NCBI GenBank assembly: GCA_036374795.1
Contig: DASUTC010000056.1
Coordinates: 1 to 57,967, forward strand
DNA length: 57,967 bases
Direction: 5' to 3'
From: Herpetosiphonaceae bacterium
Lineage (GTDB): Bacteria; Chloroflexota; Chloroflexia; Chloroflexales; Kallotenuaceae
The first letter of the stretch is position 1; every line of letters begins with the position of its first letter. Positions 1 through 53,803 of the stretch are shown here, in pieces. A model generated the notes under the pieces. It made no database searches. It saw nothing but the letters and a program-made list of their open reading frames with translations, and was not told the DNA's origin. The position numbers and the translations under genes are program-made.

Positions 1-29
1 CCAACTGACACGAGAGCCGCGCAGCCGGA

Positions 30-49
30 CGTAGAGCGGTCGCTCTACG
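30..49. promoter_or_regulatory. Palindromic operator-like site upstream of the first gene
   Basis: A perfect inverted repeat, CGTAGAGCG-GT-CGCTCTACG, lies about 70 bp before the start of the winged-helix regulator. Its size and symmetry suit a dimeric DNA-binding protein, so autoregulation by the first gene is plausible. A weak TAGCAT box follows at about 60. The role is inference; the palindrome is seen directly. Confidence 0.45.
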
Positions 50-121
50 CGGTGGATTGTAGCATGCCCTGTGGCATCCGACAATCCGCCGTCCCCGGCT
101 GCCTACCCGAAAGGCAGCAGT

Positions 122-445
122 ATGTTAACCGAACCGGAGCCGGTCCCCCGCCGCGTCCAGCGGCGGTATGACCGGCTCGCCGTCCTCGATCACATCGCCA
201 CTTTCCAGCAGCAGCACGCCGCGTCGCCCTCGCAGCGGATCATCGCCCGCGCGCTGGGGATGTCGGCGCCCTCGGTCGCCCACAACGCCCTGCATGGCCT
301 GGAGCGCGCCGGTCTGCTCCGCATCACGGTGACGCAGCCGGGCTGGCCCGCGAAGCTGGAGATCACGCCCGCCGGCCGGGAGCGCCTCCAAGCCTGGCGG
401 GCGGCGCGCGCCACGCCATCGGCAGATGACGGAGGTGCCGCATGA
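122..445 (+). CDS. Small winged helix-turn-helix regulator, LexA N-terminal-like
   Basis: A 107-residue protein if read from the ATG at 122, which has a purine-rich AAAGGCAG stretch before it; an in-frame GTG at 71 would add 17 residues without a ribosome site. Residues about 15-65 (RLAVLDHIATFQQQH, SQRIIARALGMSAPSV, LHGLERAGLLRI) match the winged-helix fold of the LexA DNA-binding domain and related plasmid regulators. There is no protease or ligand domain. It is the first gene of a seven-gene operon and overlaps the next by ATGA. An inverted repeat at 30-49 is a likely operator. It probably regulates the replication operon; the exact target is unknown. Confidence 0.7.
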   Translation: MLTEPEPVPRRVQRRYDRLAVLDHIATFQQQHAASPSQRIIARALGMSAPSVAHNALHGLERAGLLRITVTQPGWPAKLEITPAGRERLQAWRAARATPSADDGGAA

Positions 446-1389
446 GCCCTCCCTGCCAGCTCCACGCGCCGTCGGGATGCGCTGCACCCTCCAGCATCGC
501 GACGTGCGTTCCGGGCCGCAGCCATGCCCACCCCCCGACGATCCCGCCGCACGTGCTCGCGATTGGATCTACCGGGCTGCACGCCGCGTTGCGCGCGGCA
601 GGTGTCGCCGTCAGCCCGGTGCCGACGCTCCTCGACGGCTATGATCGGGCCGTCCGCCGCCTGGCCGCCGCCGCGCCGCCGCGCCTGACGCTCATCCTGC
701 TCGATCTCCACGCCCACGCGCCGGGCTTTCCGGAGCTGGCCGCGCCGCAGCTCGCCGCCGTGCTTGCTGAGCAGATGACGCGCGGCGCGCTCCACCCGGC
801 CTGGCTCATCGGCCTGACGAGCACGCCGGCCCCCGATCTCGACGCCGAGGCGTACCTGGCCGGCTGCCACCTCGTGCTGCATCGCCCGCTGACCCCGGCC
901 ATGCGGGCGCGCCTCGCGCGGCTCGCGACCTATCCGGCCGCGCTCCCGCCCACCGACCGGGCGACGCAGGCGTATCAGCGGGCCGCGCTGCGCGTCGTGC
1001 ACGCCGTCGAGGCGGCGCAGGTCCCGCTCTGGAGCGCGGCGGATGTGGCGCTGCTGCTCGGCTGGCTCACGCCCTACCCGCTCCGGCGGGCGACGCGGGC
1101 GCAGCCGCAGCAGCAGGCGGCGGCGCGGCGGCTCGTCCGCGCGCTGGGCGGTGCCCGCGCGGCCCATCGACGGCTGCACCAGATCGCCGCGTCCTGGCGG
1201 GTGCGCGCGCCACTCCACGCCGAGGTGCTGACCTTGTTCCTCCAGGGCTGGGAGCGGCGGGCGATCGTACGGAGCTATGTCGACCGGGGCCTCTACGAGG
1301 ATACCCGCATCTATATCGTGATCAACGAACTGCCACAGCGGATCGCCGCCGAGCTGCGGCTGGCGCAGGCGCGTGAGGAGGATGCCTAG
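442..1389 (+). CDS. Receiver-like protein with degenerate response-regulator fold
   Basis: 315 residues; ATG overlaps the previous stop (ATGA) and has GGAGG upstream. Residues about 45-165 resemble a receiver domain: LTLILLDLHAHAPG fits the strand carrying the phospho-acceptor aspartate, AWLIGLTS fits beta-4 with its Thr/Ser, and LHRPLTP occupies the place of the conserved Lys-Pro loop with the lysine lost. The C-terminal 130 residues are helical (EVLTLFLQGWERRAIVRSYV) and may bind DNA, but no standard output domain is recognised. It sits between a regulator and the replication initiator, so a regulatory role is likely. No cognate kinase is adjacent. The family call is moderate; the function is unknown. 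Confidence 0.5.
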   Translation: MSPPCQLHAPSGCAAPSSIATCVPGRSHAHPPTIPPHVLAIGSTGLHAALRAAGVAVSPVPTLLDGYDRAVRRLAAAAPPRLTLILLDLHAHAPGFPELAAPQLAAVLAEQMTRGALHPAWLIGLTSTPAPDLDAEAYLAGCHLVLHRPLTPAMRARLARLATYPAALPPTDRATQAYQRAALRVVHAVEAAQVPLWSAADVALLLGWLTPYPLRRATRAQPQQQAAARRLVRALGGARAAHRRLHQIAASWRVRAPLHAEVLTLFLQGWERRAIVRSYVDRGLYEDTRIYIVINELPQRIAAELRLAQAREEDA

Positions 1390-3696
1390 ATGCTCGCACG
1401 AACCCCTGACCACACCCCCCCGCTCATGACGCTGGACTGGACGCCGCTCGTCGGCATGACCGGGGTCTTTCTCTACGCCTATCTCACCGATCTGGGGGCG
1501 CACCAGCAGGCACAGCGCCGGACGCCTGCGACACCCGCTCCAGCGGTGCTCCAGGCGCGGCTGGGCCTCCCCGAGCCGTGGCAGGTCGTCGGGTCGCTGT
1601 ACCTGCTGACCGCTGCGGGGCTGCTCCAGCGCCCGCCGTGGGTGCCGCCCCACGCCGCGCCCGCTGCCGACCCGGCGCCGCGCGTGCTCGACTGGGACAC
1701 GCTGGATCGGGTGCTCACGGCGCTGATGCCTGCGCTCGATCCGACGCACCCGGAGCACGCCATTGGCCAGGCGGCGGTGCGGGTGCTGAGCCAGGGCGGG
1801 ATCTTGCAGAACGCGGAGCCCGCGTATCGCTTCTACGCCGACGGCGCGTGGCCCGATCTCGTGCCGCGTCTGCTGAACGATGCGCGCTGGACGCGGCTCT
1901 TTACGCAGCTCCATGGGACCGCAGCCTTGCGCGTGTATCGCCGCCGGGCGCGGGCCTGGGTGGCGCAGGCGCAGCGCGCGCGGGCACGGCAGCAGCAGGC
2001 GCAGCGCCCGGATGAGGAGCCGGAGGATGGAGACGGCGGCACGGGCGGGGCGGGGAGCAGCGATCCCGGTGGAGCGGCGCTCCCGCCTACCGCCGCGCCG
2101 GAGACGAGTCCCACGACCGAGGCGCGTGCCGCCAGGGGTAGTGCCGCCGTCGCCGATCTGTCGCCACTCTGTCGCCGTTGTGTCGCCAGTGTGTCGCCGC
2201 CTGTCGCTCGTGATCCCGATCCACGAGCGACACCCCGTACGCTGTCGCTGCCGGATCAGCCGCGTGTCGCTCGTGATCCCGATCCACGAGCGACACCCTC
2301 CAACGTGTCGCTGGCGGATCATCAGCGTGTCGCTCGTGATCCCATTCCACCAGCGACACCCCGTACGCTGTCGCTGGCGGATCAGCGACCTGTCGCTCGT
2401 GATCCTGATCCGCGAGCGACACGATACGTTGATCGGCCCCAGGAGCCGCCCGCGCAGGTGTCGCTGGCGGATCGGGACGTGTCGCTCCCGGATCGATCGT
2501 TAACGGAGGAATCGTTAACGACTCAGGATTCAGACAACGACACGATCGACGATTCCGCCAGCGACACGCTGCTGTCCATCGCGCGACACCTGCGCGCGGA
2601 GGAGCTCGCCAGCACGCGGCAGGACCTGGCCTTCTGGCGCGAGGTCCACCGCATCCTGAGTGGCAGCGACACGCGCTACCCGCACACGCCGGGCGAGAAG
2701 AAGGCCGCCGAGCGCCGCTTCAAGCGCCAGCAGATCCCCGTCGGCGTCGTGCTGGCCGCGCTCCGAGCGGTCATGGCGCTCCCGCCCCCGCTGCGGCCTT
2801 GCACCTTCGGCGACGCGATCACCAGCGACACCTTCCAGGCGGGCGTGCAGCAGGCATGTGCGCTCGTGCCGACGCTGCTCCCGCAGCCGCCTACAGGCCG
2901 CGACTGGCATGCCTTGCTGCACGCCTACCGCACCGTCGGGCGAGTGGTTGGGCTGCGGGACGTTGGCCGCGCCGACTATGTGACGCTCCACGCGCTCTTT
3001 GCATCCCAGCCGGATGGGTGCTGGCAGGCAATCGAGCGCTGGCGGGATCACCCCCCGCCGCGCGTCTCGCCCGCTGCCCTCCGCCGCGCGGTCACGCGCG
3101 CGACACGTCCAGAGCAGCCGCCGCTGCCGTTAGCTGACTGGCCCGCGCGCGCTGCTGACGATCCCCGCCGCGCGCTGCTGAAGGAGGCTGGGGTCAGCGT
3201 GACGCTGCTCACGCCGGACATGACCGCGGACTACCTGCGGGCCTGGATCGCCGAGGCCGACGCCCGCGCGGACGCGCTGCACAACCGTGCCGCCTGGCTG
3301 ACCTGGGGCATCCGCTCCGGGCAGTTCCCGCACGCGCATCCGCAGCTCCGAGCGCGGCGTGCAGCCCACCCGCAAGCGCCGCCCCCGCCCCCGCCACCCC
3401 CACCCACGCCGATCTCCGCGGAGCAGCAGGCGTGGCAGCAGCTCTGGAGCACGGTGCAGCGGCGGCTGTCGGAGCACGTGCCCGCGCAGGACTACGCGAC
3501 CTGGCTGCACGAGACGGCGCTGCTCGAGCTTGCGTCAGGCGAGGCGATCGTCGGCACGCCCAACATCTTTGCCCGCGACAAGGTGGCGGCGACGTACGCG
3601 CCGCTGATCGCCCAGACCTTGCAGCAGCAGACGCGGCAGCCCATCCGGGTGCAGGTGGTGCTGGAGCAGGGGCTGGCGTCCGGCGGCTGGCGATGA
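1390..3696 (+). CDS. Replication initiator-like protein with C-terminal DnaA_N-like domain
   Basis: 768 residues, start at ATG 1390 with GAGGAGG upstream. The N-terminal part (about 30-85) looks like a winged helix (LGLPEPWQVVGSLYLLTAAGLLQ), as in plasmid initiators. Residues about 271-355 are four 21-residue repeats encoded by 63-bp DNA repeats. A helical region (about 400-650) ends in AAWLTWGIRSGQFP, reminiscent of DnaD/replication-protein tails. After a proline run, residues about 678-765 match DnaA domain I: W...L......P...Y..WL, then PNIFARDKVAATYAPLI, close in pattern to the DnaA N-terminus that recruits helicase. No AAA+ or Walker motif is present, so it is not DnaA itself. It most likely initiates replication of the element and loads helicase. 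The origin may lie in its own coding sequence. Confidence 0.65.
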   Translation: MLARTPDHTPPLMTLDWTPLVGMTGVFLYAYLTDLGAHQQAQRRTPATPAPAVLQARLGLPEPWQVVGSLYLLTAAGLLQRPPWVPPHAAPAADPAPRVLDWDTLDRVLTALMPALDPTHPEHAIGQAAVRVLSQGGILQNAEPAYRFYADGAWPDLVPRLLNDARWTRLFTQLHGTAALRVYRRRARAWVAQAQRARARQQQAQRPDEEPEDGDGGTGGAGSSDPGGAALPPTAAPETSPTTEARAARGSAAVADLSPLCRRCVASVSPPVARDPDPRATPRTLSLPDQPRVARDPDPRATPSNVSLADHQRVARDPIPPATPRTLSLADQRPVARDPDPRATRYVDRPQEPPAQVSLADRDVSLPDRSLTEESLTTQDSDNDTIDDSASDTLLSIARHLRAEELASTRQDLAFWREVHRILSGSDTRYPHTPGEKKAAERRFKRQQIPVGVVLAALRAVMALPPPLRPCTFGDAITSDTFQAGVQQACALVPTLLPQPPTGRDWHALLHAYRTVGRVVGLRDVGRADYVTLHALFASQPDGCWQAIERWRDHPPPRVSPAALRRAVTRATRPEQPPLPLADWPARAADDPRRALLKEAGVSVTLLTPDMTADYLRAWIAEADARADALHNRAAWLTWGIRSGQFPHAHPQLRARRAAHPQAPPPPPPPPPTPISAEQQAWQQLWSTVQRRLSEHVPAQDYATWLHETALLELASGEAIVGTPNIFARDKVAATYAPLIAQTLQQQTRQPIRVQVVLEQGLASGGWR
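2202..2453 (+). repeat. Four 63-bp tandem repeats with 31-bp palindromes, iteron-like
   Basis: Units start at 2202, 2265, 2328 and 2391, exactly 63 bp apart. Each opens with the inverted repeat TGTCGCTCGTG-N9-CACGAGCGACA: perfect in units 1 and 2, one mismatch in units 3 and 4. The second half of units 1-3 carries a further TGTCGCTG-(G/C)CGGATCA motif. Looser TGTCGC motifs flank the block on both sides (from about 2159 and to about 2488). The period is a multiple of 3, so the initiator frame is kept. This is the architecture of an origin embedded in its initiator gene. Confidence 0.8.
2496..2520 (+). repeat. Direct repeat ATCGTTAACG next to the 63-bp array
   Basis: ATCGTTAACG occurs at 2496-2505 and 2511-2520, 15 bp apart, just downstream of the palindromic repeats. 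Each contains the palindrome CGTTAACG. The following 40 bp are less GC-rich than the surroundings. It could be part of the unwinding region or a second protein-binding site of a putative origin. Still coding for the initiator. Confidence 0.55.
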
Positions 3697-4187
3697 CACG
3701 CAACGTCTCCTGCCCGACCACGGCCCGCGCGCTGCTCGCGGACGACCGCCTGGTCATCCTGGCGACCGAGCCACGCGGTCGCGGGCTGGGGGCGGTGGCG
3801 CTCCTCGACCGGCACGGCCACGTGCTGCTGCACACGCGCATCCGGCCCGCGTGCCCGGACGCGCCGCCGCTCGCTGGCGTGTGGCCGCCGCTCGCGGCGC
3901 TGCTCACGGGCCGGATCGTCGGGAGCGCGCACCTGGCCCGCGACCGCCGCCTGTTGCGGCAGACTGCCCGACGGCTTGGTGCCACGCTGCTGTATAGCGA
4001 CTGGCGCTCGCTCGCTGAGCTGGCCTGCCGCGCACCCGCCCAGGCGCACCGGGAGCGGATACCGCCGATCCCCGTGCCCCACGCGGCCCTCGCCGAGGCC
4101 CATGCCGCGCTCGACGCCCTGCGCGCGGTCGCGGCTCCCCCGCTGACCGTTCCGCCGCCCCGTCATGTCTTCTGGAGGTATCTCTGA
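3693..4187 (+). CDS. Degenerate DnaQ-like exonuclease-fold protein
   Basis: 164 residues; ATG at 3693 overlaps the initiator stop. The order of segments follows the DEDDh exonuclease fold: VILATEPRGRGLGAVALLDRHGHVLLHTRIRP at the place of the usual DTETTG strand, then RIVGSAHLARDRRLLRQTARRLG in place of HN..FD, and PHAALAEAHAALDAL in place of the final H..DA motif. The first catalytic aspartate is replaced by Ala (LATE instead of DTE) and the last acidic position is Glu, so catalysis is doubtful. It may be a structural partner of the initiator or replisome. The call rests on pattern only. Confidence 0.45.
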   Translation: MTRNVSCPTTARALLADDRLVILATEPRGRGLGAVALLDRHGHVLLHTRIRPACPDAPPLAGVWPPLAALLTGRIVGSAHLARDRRLLRQTARRLGATLLYSDWRSLAELACRAPAQAHRERIPPIPVPHAALAEAHAALDALRAVAAPPLTVPPPRHVFWRYL

Positions 4188-4639
4188 TGATCACTGCTGA
4201 ACTGACCACCCCGCCGCTGCTGCTGACCAGCGCCGAGCGCGCCGCGCTGCGTGAGGCCGCGCCCGGCGACCATCCACTCCTTGATGCCGCCGCGCAGCAG
4301 GCCGACGCATTGCCCCTGTTCCTGACCCAGCTCGCCGAGCTGCTGCGGGCCGGTCAGGCGGATCTGGCCCTGGCCCAGCTCGATGCCGCGCTCGCGCCGG
4401 TTGCCGCGCTGGATGGGAATGCGGACGGCCTGACAGCGACGCTGGGCGAGCTGATGACCGCCTGGGCGACGCTCATGCCGCGCTGTCCCGACGGCAGGCT
4501 GCCCGTGGCGGTGCTCACCGATCCCGGCGCGCTGCGGTCGCTGGCAGACGCTGCCGAGGCCGTGAGCGAGCACGCGCAGGAGCTGGCGCTGCGGCTGGCG
4601 GATCGGGCGCGGCTGCTCGACGAGCGGCTGCCGGGCTAG
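4187..4639 (+). CDS. Hypothetical alpha-helical protein
   Basis: 150 residues, start by TGATG overlap with the previous gene. The sequence is rich in Ala, Leu and acidic residues and is predicted by eye to be almost wholly helical, with heptad-like stretches (LFLTQLAELLRAGQADLALAQLDAAL and HAQELALRLADRARLLDERL). No signal peptide, membrane segment or known motif. Translational coupling to the exonuclease-like protein suggests they work together. Function not recognised. Confidence 0.5.
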   Translation: MITAELTTPPLLLTSAERAALREAAPGDHPLLDAAAQQADALPLFLTQLAELLRAGQADLALAQLDAALAPVAALDGNADGLTATLGELMTAWATLMPRCPDGRLPVAVLTDPGALRSLADAAEAVSEHAQELALRLADRARLLDERLPG

Positions 4640-4649
4640 GGGAGACGAG

Positions 4650-6749
4650 ATGCGTTCCTGCTTCATGCTGATCGTGCTCCTCAGCACCCTGTTCCTCCCG
4701 GCTCCGAGCATTGCCGCCGCGCCGCCCGTCGCCAATCCCCTGGTCGCCGATCCCCACGCGCTGCGCGTGCGCATGACCGAGGCCGGGCTTCAGCAAATCG
4801 ACGCGGCGGCGCTCGCAGCCGCAGGCTGGGATCTGGCGACTCTCGATCCCAGCCGTATCCACCTGTGGCAGCACGGCCAGGAGGTGCCCCTGGACATCCA
4901 CGACGGCGGCGATGGCCGCCTGGATGTGGGTGATGTGCTTCAGTTCATCGGCCACCTGAACCCGAGTCGGTATAGCCGCGAGTCGGTGTCCTGGCTGTCC
5001 CTGGAGGACACGCCAGGGCTGCGCGGCACGCCCCAGCTTGCGCCGGGCGACCCGATCCGCTGGGAAGAGGACGTGCTCTACCAGACGCGCTGGCCGTCGC
5101 TGCGTGGCGACCGCTGGTATGGCCGGGAGCTGGTCCGCGGGACGGATCGCGATCGGACCAGCATCGCGCTGACGCTGCCCGTGAGCGCGCCTGCCGGGAC
5201 GCGCATCCAGCTCGCCGTCGTCGGGACGCGGGCACAGCCGCACACGCTGACGCTCAGCGCCAATGGTCGCGCGCTCGATCCCCTGACCTGGCCGGGCACC
5301 GAGCCGTATCTGGGCACGGTGCTGCTCCCGTTCACGATCCTGCCGGGCGTGCTTCAGCTTGACGTAACGATTGCGAGCGACCAGCCTGATACGGTGCTGC
5401 TCGACTGGGTGGCGCTGCCCGACGTGCGGCCGGCCTATGCCGCGACGCCCCACACGCCAAGCGTCGAGCGTGGGCCGGGGTTCGATCCAGGCGCGGGACC
5501 AGCGCCGGGCCAATCCGGGGCGTCCTACCTGATCATCACCCACGCATCGCTGCGGAGCGCGCTCGACCCGCTGATCGTCGCGCACCAGCAGCGCGGCGAC
5601 ACCGTTGGTGTGGTCGACGTGCAGACGGCGTATGATGCCTGGGCCTGGGGCGAGCGCGATCCTGAAGCGATCCGCTCCCTGATCCGCGCGGCCGTCGCTA
5701 CCTGGCAGCCAGCGCCGCGCGCCGTGCTGCTGGTTGGCGCGGGGAGCGTGCGCATGCGCGTCGATCCCGGCCAGGTGGACCCCACCCTGATCCCGCCCTA
5801 CCTCGTGGACGCCGATCCGGTGCGCGGCGAGATCGCCTGTGACACCTGCTACACCCGTCTGGATACGGATGATCCGCTTGAGGATCTGCTGCCGGAGCTG
5901 CCGATCGGACGGCTGCCGGCCCGCACCTTGGGAGAGGCGCAGACGATCGTGCGCAAGACAGCGCAGTACCTCACCGCCCCGCCCGCGGGACCCTGGCGCA
6001 CCCGGGCGCTGCTGCTGACCGACAACGACCGCGAGCCGGATGGTCGCCTCGATCCGGCCGGGAGCTTTGTGGCAACCGCGGAGACGGTCGTGTCCGTGCT
6101 GCCACGGGGCATGCAGATCCAGCGCTTCTTCTACGCCCCGGATCGCGTGACGGGGAACGGCTCCTACCGGAATGTCGCCGAGCTGCGCTGTCGTTTGATG
6201 CGGGCGCTCGACGGCGGATCGCGCTACGATACCGCGTGTCCGCCATTCTCGACGACCACGCCGACGGGCGCGGCGCTGTGGGTCTATGTCGGCCATGCCT
6301 CGCAGTGGCAGTGGGCGGCGACCACGCCCGACGCCCCGACGCCCTATCTGTGGTACGTGTACGACGCCGATGCCCGCACCAATGGCGATCGGCTGCCGAT
6401 CCTCTTGAGTATGACCTGTTTGAGCGGCGACTGGGCGAATCCCGTGCTCATGACCACGGATGAGCGCCTCGTGCTGTGGCCGCAGGGCGGCGCGGTTGCC
6501 AGCCTGGCCGCGACGGGTGAGGGGGTAAATACGGCGCATGCGGTGCTGCTCCAGGGCCTGGTGCCGCGGCTCTTTGCCCAGGATGGGCGACGGCGGAGCT
6601 TGGGCGAAGCACATCTGGACGGGCTGCGCGTGGTGGTGCTGGCCGGCCACCATGATCTGGTCTTTAGTTTTGGCATTCTGGGCGATCCGGACGTGGCGCT
6701 GCCATTTGTGCCGACGTCGACCGCGTGGGTGCCGATCGCGAGGCGCTGA
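4650..6749 (+). CDS. Secreted C25 (gingipain-like) cysteine peptidase
   Basis: 699 residues with a clear signal peptide (MRSCFMLIVLLSTLFLPAPSIAAA) and GGGGAGA upstream of the ATG. Residues about 290-690 follow peptidase family C25: a Rossmann-like start (SYLIITHASLRSALDPLI), ELPIGRLPARTLGEAQ, then the catalytic pair, His549 in YVGHAS and Cys590 in SMTCLSGDW. The N-terminal 270 residues are beta-rich and may be a pro- or carbohydrate-type domain. No Por-secretion C-terminal domain is visible, so export is by Sec only. Its place inside a replication/regulation operon, with a TGATG overlap to the next regulator, is unexpected; it may act on surface or pilus proteins of the element. Family call is firm, target unknown. 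Confidence 0.75.
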   Translation: MRSCFMLIVLLSTLFLPAPSIAAAPPVANPLVADPHALRVRMTEAGLQQIDAAALAAAGWDLATLDPSRIHLWQHGQEVPLDIHDGGDGRLDVGDVLQFIGHLNPSRYSRESVSWLSLEDTPGLRGTPQLAPGDPIRWEEDVLYQTRWPSLRGDRWYGRELVRGTDRDRTSIALTLPVSAPAGTRIQLAVVGTRAQPHTLTLSANGRALDPLTWPGTEPYLGTVLLPFTILPGVLQLDVTIASDQPDTVLLDWVALPDVRPAYAATPHTPSVERGPGFDPGAGPAPGQSGASYLIITHASLRSALDPLIVAHQQRGDTVGVVDVQTAYDAWAWGERDPEAIRSLIRAAVATWQPAPRAVLLVGAGSVRMRVDPGQVDPTLIPPYLVDADPVRGEIACDTCYTRLDTDDPLEDLLPELPIGRLPARTLGEAQTIVRKTAQYLTAPPAGPWRTRALLLTDNDREPDGRLDPAGSFVATAETVVSVLPRGMQIQRFFYAPDRVTGNGSYRNVAELRCRLMRALDGGSRYDTACPPFSTTTPTGAALWVYVGHASQWQWAATTPDAPTPYLWYVYDADARTNGDRLPILLSMTCLSGDWANPVLMTTDERLVLWPQGGAVASLAATGEGVNTAHAVLLQGLVPRLFAQDGRRRSLGEAHLDGLRVVVLAGHHDLVFSFGILGDPDVALPFVPTSTAWVPIARR

Positions 6750-7462
6750 TGGTCCTGGCTGTCCGCGACCTGGCACCGGCGCGCGATCACCGCCCCATCG
6801 TCTCGGTGTCGCTGATGTCCACGGTGGTCCGTCGGCGCTCGCTGATCCGCCGCCTGGAGGAGGCGGGCATTGGCTGCCATGTGCTCCTGCTCCAGTGCGA
6901 TCACGAGGACGTGCCACCTCCATCCGACGTGCCGCTGCTCCCACCCCTCACGGGTCCCCTGCTGCTCGATACCGTCAGCATGCATCCGATCATGCAAGTC
7001 ACGGTGCTCCACGAGCTGGCCACGCGGTATCCGCACGTGCCCACGCTGATCCTGACGCGGTCAGCGGATCGGGTGCTGCACCGCCTGGCGGCGAGCTGTC
7101 CGTCGGTCTATGCGGTGGCGTCGGAAACGGTGCCGTCTGCGGATCTCGTGCTGTGGCTGCGGCACTGTGGCGCCGTCGGCCCGGCCCGGGCCCCGCAGGT
7201 CCGACCCGCCTATCTGGACGTGTCCGCCCCGCCGTTCACGGCGGTCGATCCCAGGTTCCTGGCGATCCTGGTGGCCCTGGCGCATGCCCCGAGCATTGAG
7301 CGGGCGGCTGCGATCTCACTACTGCCAGAGCGGACGTTCTATCGGAAACTGCGCCAGTTGCGGCTGGCCTGCAACGTGCCAGCCCGGATGTATCGTGGCC
7401 GGGCGTCCGCGCTGCTGCACCTGCTGTTGGACGCCTTGGCAGCGCCACCGGCGCACCCGTAG
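6749..7462 (+). CDS. Response-regulator-like protein with C-terminal helix-turn-helix
   Basis: 237 residues from the ATG at 6749, which overlaps the protease stop (TGATG); a GTG at 6725 is less likely. The N-terminal half resembles a receiver fold (PIVSVSLMSTVVRRRSLIRRLEEAGI, VPTLILTRSADRVLHRL) but the acidic pocket and the lysine are not evident, so phosphorylation is doubtful. The C-terminal part, SIERAAAISLLPERTFYRKLRQLR, reads as a helix-turn-helix. A decayed relative of this C-terminus lies at 16751-16987. Last gene of the first operon; likely a transcription regulator of the element. Confidence 0.5.
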   Translation: MVLAVRDLAPARDHRPIVSVSLMSTVVRRRSLIRRLEEAGIGCHVLLLQCDHEDVPPPSDVPLLPPLTGPLLLDTVSMHPIMQVTVLHELATRYPHVPTLILTRSADRVLHRLAASCPSVYAVASETVPSADLVLWLRHCGAVGPARAPQVRPAYLDVSAPPFTAVDPRFLAILVALAHAPSIERAAAISLLPERTFYRKLRQLRLACNVPARMYRGRASALLHLLLDALAAPPAHP

Positions 7463-53695: not shown

Positions 53696-53803
53696 GCGAC
53701 AACCGATGCGACAACCGCGAGACAACCGCGAGACAACCGACGCGACAACCGATGCGACAACCGCGAGACAACCATGAGATAACCGTGAGACAACTGCGAG
53801 ACA
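53696..53803 (+). repeat. Ten-copy 11-12-bp repeat array, GACAACC type
   Basis: GACAACC or close variants (GATAACC, GACAACT, GACAG) start at 53698, 53710, 53721, 53732, 53744, 53756, 53767, 53778, 53789 and 53800. The spacing is always 11 or 12 bp, close to one turn of the helix, so a protein bound to each copy would lie on one face. It begins 6 bp after the replication-relaxation stop codon. Confidence 0.8.

Follow-up and report, generated by a model that had tools for sequence, protein, structure and literature searches.

A probable replication origin within the gene of its own initiator-like protein on a mobile element of a Chloroflexota genome

The window, by which we mean the whole stretch of DNA that was analysed, is contig C56 (57,967 bp) of a Chloroflexota genome of 7.75 Mb in 373 contigs. 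Close to its start lies an initiator-like gene (1390-3696, forward strand) that encodes a protein of 768 amino acids and carries within its coding sequence an array of short repeated sites. Directly upstream on the same strand are the genes for a LexA-type HTH protein (71-445; Pfam PF01726, E 1.5e-7) and for a 315-amino-acid protein of no known family (442-1389), which has homologues near the initiator gene in C184, C347a, and C347b. By eye, the 315-amino-acid protein looks receiver-like. No RNA families or tRNAs were found in the window.

The initiator-like protein can be divided into an N-terminal domain (amino acids 12 to 200), a linker encoded by the array (about 256 to 395), a conserved middle domain (about 396 to 660), which is all-helical in a low-confidence model, and a C-terminal DnaA_N domain, or DnaA domain I (683 to 745; 3436-3624, forward strand). 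The C-terminal assignment is based on a Pfam match to PF11638 (E 2.7e-11, 43.4 bits versus a cut-off of 24.6), a match to 4tps_B in a PDB sequence search with the family profile (E 1.5e-11), and a Foldseek match to 4tps_D (TMt 0.91). The helicase loader DciA is a weaker fold match to this domain. The N-terminal and middle domains matched no Pfam family, and the N-terminal domain showed no match to known DNA-binding families; its structural model is poor and unusable (pLDDT 52). Across five family members, DnaA_N was the sole known domain in hmmscan at E values up to 5, and the RepA_N domain (PF06970) was absent from the same scan; a very remote RepA_N relation, too weak for the profile to detect, is possible. 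The protein shares the domain I fold with DnaA but has it at the C terminus, and no AAA+ ATPase or DnaA domain IV was detected. DnaA proper was rejected on these grounds; the NCBIfam DnaA score is 27.8 bits versus a cut-off of 343.9. The DnaA domain I and the ParA and ParB genes beside one paralog and one distant homologue make the gene a candidate replication initiator.

The array starts with five tandem TGTCGC half-sites on the forward strand (2159-2207; at 2159, 2170, 2181, 2192, and 2202), which follow one another in steps of 11, 11, 11, and 10 bp. They lie in three reading frames and encode L-S-P, C-R, V-A, V-S-P, and V-A, respectively. A 63-bp tandem repeat on the same strand (2196-2422) contains four palindromes of the form TGTCGCTCGTG-N9-CACGAGCGACA, two with perfectly matching 11-base arms (2202-2232 and 2265-2295) and two with 10 of 11 matches (2328-2358 and 2391-2421). 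The original prediction had described four 63-bp repeats with 11-9-11 palindromes. The palindromes are all present, but there are 3.6 tandem copies rather than four, as the fourth unit is barely more than its palindrome. Each full unit combines an inverted pair of half-sites with one further TGTCGCTGSCGGATC half-site. The extra TGTCGC motifs predicted on both sides are there as well: four upstream (2159 to 2192) and two downstream on the forward strand (2459-2485; at 2459 and 2480, 21 bp apart). Four inverted half-sites, GCGACA, follow on the reverse strand (2561-2830; at 2561, 2583, 2666, and 2825). The direct repeat with CGTTAACG cores was also correctly described and consists of two ATCGTTAACG copies on the forward strand (2496-2505 and 2511-2520). 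It falls within the least stable 60 bp of the gene (2495-2554), a candidate unwinding element in which the GC content drops to 46% over 50 bp, versus a gene mean of 72%. In total, the motif is spread over about 650 bp of coding DNA, and the first sites are located about 770 bp into the gene. Among the periods tried, phase coherence was best at 10.5 bp (0.65), a value that is partly automatic given the 63-bp duplication.

The gene contains 24 copies of TGTCGC or GCGACA (13 and 11, respectively), whereas 4.35 were expected and 9 was the maximum in 500 synonymous shuffles; shuffling of the codon order gave an expectation of 2.39. Frames 0, 1, and 2 hold 7, 11, and 6 of these half-sites, and a protein repeat would not explain the use of the motif in all three frames. 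The palindromes are less striking alone: four 11-9-11 repeats with at least 10 of 11 arm matches compare with a mean of 0.41 in 500 synonymous shuffles, but the shuffle maximum was also 4, and the four are copies of the same unit. The robust signal comes from the half-site TGTCGC(T), which, rather than the palindrome, is the basic conserved unit. In a blind 6-mer scan against synonymous shuffles, the gene ranked first among the ORFs of the window, and its paralogs ranked 1, 2, 4, and 5 among the 117 ORFs of C184, C347, and C36. The top 6-mer was TGTCGC in the window and C184 genes, GTCGCT in C347a and C347b, and GTCCCT in C36 and G001. The same scan found no comparable motif in DnaA or in the short DnaA_N proteins of the genome. 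On the C36 contig (34.5 kb) all 12 occurrences of TGTCCCT lie inside the initiator gene, as do all 12 of GTCCCT on the G001 contig (8.6 kb). We also considered dispersed palindromic elements and rejected them, as every match to the palindrome pattern in the genome falls within this gene or its paralogs.

The same genome encodes four full-length paralogs: C184 (86% identical), C347a (61%), C36 (41%), and C347b (36%). A sister species of the same genus (G001) has one homologue of about 37 to 42% identity, on a contig of 8,595 bp (C840), and a member of another genus (G004, contig C205) has one of about 27%. C184 likewise has a run of five half-sites at 11-bp steps, and runs of more than two half-sites at about 11-bp spacing occur only in these two genes. 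In five of the seven homologues (the window gene, C184, C347a, C347b, and C36), the least stable 60 bp is found directly 3' of the array; in G001 and G004 it is not at the matching place. GTTAAC is present at that place in C184 (three copies), C347a (one), and C347b (two) and is absent from C36 and G001. The expectation that an alignment of initiators would show the motif being kept while the residues drift was borne out in the close family (about 36 to 86% identity). It does not extend to more distant homologues, where the palindromes decay: G001 lacks them, with no arms of at least 9 bp, and the 6-mer scan gave no clear motif in G004.

The comparison of the window gene with C347a bears on what is selected. 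In the array codons, pS is 0.266, versus 0.417 to 0.646 in other blocks of the same size, while pN is 0.346, versus 0.151 to 0.313, and none of 5,000 permutations was as extreme. Synonymous sites are thus held while residues change, which is the pattern expected if the DNA matters, and the claim that the DNA rather than the protein is selected is upheld for this pair; the close pair of the window gene and C184 showed no significant synonymous constraint in the array. Bases within TGTCGC motifs are 90.5% identical versus 59.9% outside them, a figure that is favoured by choosing the motif on the window gene; a second comparison, based on the 5-base core GTCGC as chosen from C347a, gave 93.3% and 62.2%. 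We regard it as close to certain that the gene contains an array of sites selected at the DNA level.

Several features suggest what kind of element carries the gene. A Replic_Relax gene in the window scores above the cut-off (E 9e-14), and there are weak matches below the cut-off to TraG-D_C (E 4e-4, 20.7 bits versus 22) and to the VirB4-like AAA_10 (E 1e-3); together they suggest that the element may be conjugative. No phage-type integrase and no partition gene were recognised among the ORFs scanned on this incomplete contig. Immediately behind the Replic_Relax gene is an intergenic array (53698-53803) in which an 11-bp unit, GACAACCGCGA, is repeated 9.4 times; GCGACA occurs in four of the copies. 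After the array come a non-coding core that is conserved (GATGGGGTTTCGGCGCTCCCAGA...) and CTGC/TGCATTGC repeats. The array at the same place in C347 has diverged, and C184 keeps only part of the core. We consider the 53698-53803 array a candidate transfer origin.

Most likely, with a probability of about three in four, this mobile element has its replication origin inside the gene of its own initiator, and the array within the initiator-like gene is the part of the origin to which the initiator binds. That the origin lies inside the initiator gene, as originally predicted, is supported by the alignment of motif and residues and by the C-terminal DnaA domain I. We infer the binding partner, the opening of the DNA, the recruitment of the helicase by domain I, and the start of replication at the array. 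In the mechanism that we propose, the N-terminal part of the initiator would bind TGTCGC(T) half-sites, either singly or, on inverted pairs, as dimers. Once occupied, the array would strain and open the adjacent low-stability segment with its GTTAAC repeats (2495-2554), and the C-terminal DnaA domain I would recruit the host DnaB helicase as it does in DnaA. In DnaA itself, domain I binds DnaB and recruits it (PMC6127211). The peptide encoded by the array would loosely connect the half that binds DNA with the half that recruits the helicase, which would leave the residues of this peptide free to drift. GC skew, proposed as a check on the position of the origin, was uninformative, with no turn at the gene on four contigs. 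As contig C56 is incomplete, an origin outside it is possible.

The sites might instead form a partition centromere, or an incompatibility or titration array, to which a ParB-like or some other protein binds while replication starts elsewhere; their regular spacing would be in keeping with a centromere, and the C36 paralog does adjoin ParB and ParA genes. The neighbours of the G004 homologue are similar to those of C36 (an HATPase_c_4 protein, ParB, and ParA). However, no partition gene, including ParA/ParB, was recognised among the ORFs scanned on the incomplete window contig, and in every close homologue the motif in coding DNA stays with the initiator gene, regardless of the other neighbours. 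We therefore find a centromere or titration role improbable. The GCGACA-containing copies of GACAACCGCGA could mean that vegetative replication really starts at the intergenic array behind the relaxase-like gene and is only modulated by the array inside the initiator-like gene. This is quite improbable, as C184 shares the in-gene motif without having an array of this kind behind its own Replic_Relax gene and the unit differs in C347; the position beside the Replic_Relax gene and a TraG-like gene would also suit a transfer origin better.

The two genes directly upstream raise the question of whether the sites are operators through which the LexA-type HTH protein or the 315-amino-acid protein controls the operon from within. 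Homologues of the pair accompany the initiator in C184 and C347a, where the LexA-type gene adjoins it, but in C36 the pair is located about 16 kb from the initiator gene, and C347b keeps a GTCGCT array with no LexA-type homologue found nearby. The sites also begin far inside the gene, and there is no TGTCGC upstream of the HTH gene, which makes control by operators very unlikely. That the array is a protein-level repeat, a disordered linker grown by tandem duplication in DNA without a role of its own, would fit the low-complexity VARDPDPRATP repeats and the 63-bp unit of 21 codons that keeps the frame, but is scarcely credible when the motif occurs in three frames and on both strands with frame-breaking steps of 10 to 11 bp, is removed by synonymous shuffling, and shows more non-synonymous than synonymous change in the array between the window gene and C347a.

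The reading of the array as an initiator-binding origin assumes a layout that is known to work elsewhere, pT181 replicons being a further known case of an origin inside an initiator gene. In phage lambda, the origin within gene O has four inverted-repeat iterons followed by an A+T-rich segment that opens (PMC5043065). The window gene similarly has four inverted repeats followed by a low-stability segment, but it has many more half-sites and no detected homology to O, and its product has its own DnaA domain I, whereas lambda recruits DnaB via the separate protein P. The Rep protein of the staphylococcal plasmid pSK41, like other RepA_N proteins an initiator of theta plasmids, binds DNA through its N-terminal domain and contacts DnaG of the host replication machinery through its C-terminal one; four Rep boxes lying mid-gene encode a dispensable linker (PMC5703833). 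The site repeats are also mid-gene and linker-encoding in our case, with N-terminal binding being a proposal here. The two differ in that the window protein has a C-terminal DnaA domain I and no detected RepA_N domain, its half-site is TGTCGC(T), its gene has 768 codons versus 319 for pSK41, and its host is a GC-rich member of the Chloroflexota. In repABC plasmids, oriV lies inside repC, and replication is lost when the A+T-rich segment there carries silent mutations; a search of repC for iterons found none, and the partition genes belong to the same operon (PMC3155836). The window gene would share the position of the origin with repC but, unlike repC, has repeated half-sites. These precedents show that an origin in the gene of its initiator can function (PMC5043065, PMC5703833, PMC3155836). 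By eye, the sites of the window gene do not resemble the DnaA boxes of oriC.

By sequence, the family is not detectably related to known initiators with an origin in their gene. This suggests that the same layout arose again, in an initiator with the helicase-recruiting domain of DnaA. Tentatively, and with confidence somewhat short of even, we propose a new family of plasmid initiators that combine their own DnaA domain I and their own origin in one gene, found so far in one Chloroflexota genus and, as a single distant relative, in its sister genus. Site specificity would have diverged (from TGTCGCT to TGTCCCT), which would let several such replicons share one cell as distinct compatibility groups. 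Searches of plasmid, phage, and viral-contig collections gave no relative of the initiator, and 400 genomes of the phylum gave none outside its own genome. Among GTDB contigs, one relative was found, JAFAYS010000814.1, which matches the G001 contig C840 in sequence. Plasmid typing built on the collections searched would miss this initiator, as they contain no relative. Nothing pertinent was found in the literature on Chloroflexota plasmid initiators. Six related genes are available for measuring how sites and protein change together, and the gene may serve as a minimal replicon in this phylum, for which few genetic tools exist.

Comparisons between contigs show that the initiator module travels as a whole. 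Window positions 1-7446 match the terminal part of C184 and, with the order inverted, C347 at 8.8-16.2 kb, while most of the remaining window matches C347 at 97-149 kb, which is preceded by a different initiator. Shared genes of that syntenic element are about 72 to 95% identical and its initiator is 36% identical, which points to an exchanged replication module. Upstream of the LexA-type gene, contigs C56 (at window position 1) and C184 (at 52821) break off at the identical base, which suggests a shared repeat that broke the assembly; C56 has no terminal overlap that would indicate circularity. An actin-like (ALP) gene is located about 8 to 9 kb from the C184 initiator. The 8-kb neighbourhood of the C36-type initiator is conserved in two species (C36 and G001:C840) and by eye contains sigma-factor-like and ordinary-looking genes; this initiator could mark a chromid or fixed replicon.

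The genome also encodes seven shorter proteins with a C-terminal DnaA domain I (C135, C284, C346, C34, C347c, C203, and C49), and C139 is DnaA proper by sequence. All five of the short proteins tested have an HTH_36-type N-terminal domain, to which the N-terminal domain of the initiator showed no relation in a profile comparison. No internal iterons were found in their genes, and they may represent a second class of initiators.

A small ORF (3693-4187) that overlaps the stop codon of the initiator gene looks by eye like a DnaQ-type exonuclease and has homologues in C184 and C347. The Peptidase_C25 (gingipain-type) gene at 4650-6749 travels with the initiator module in C184 and in both C347 copies. 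Upstream of the LexA-type gene (30-104) there are a TAGAGC-N4-GCTCTA palindrome and a GATTGT...ACAATC inverted repeat, possibly an operator, which are conserved in C184 and found in a diverged form in C36.
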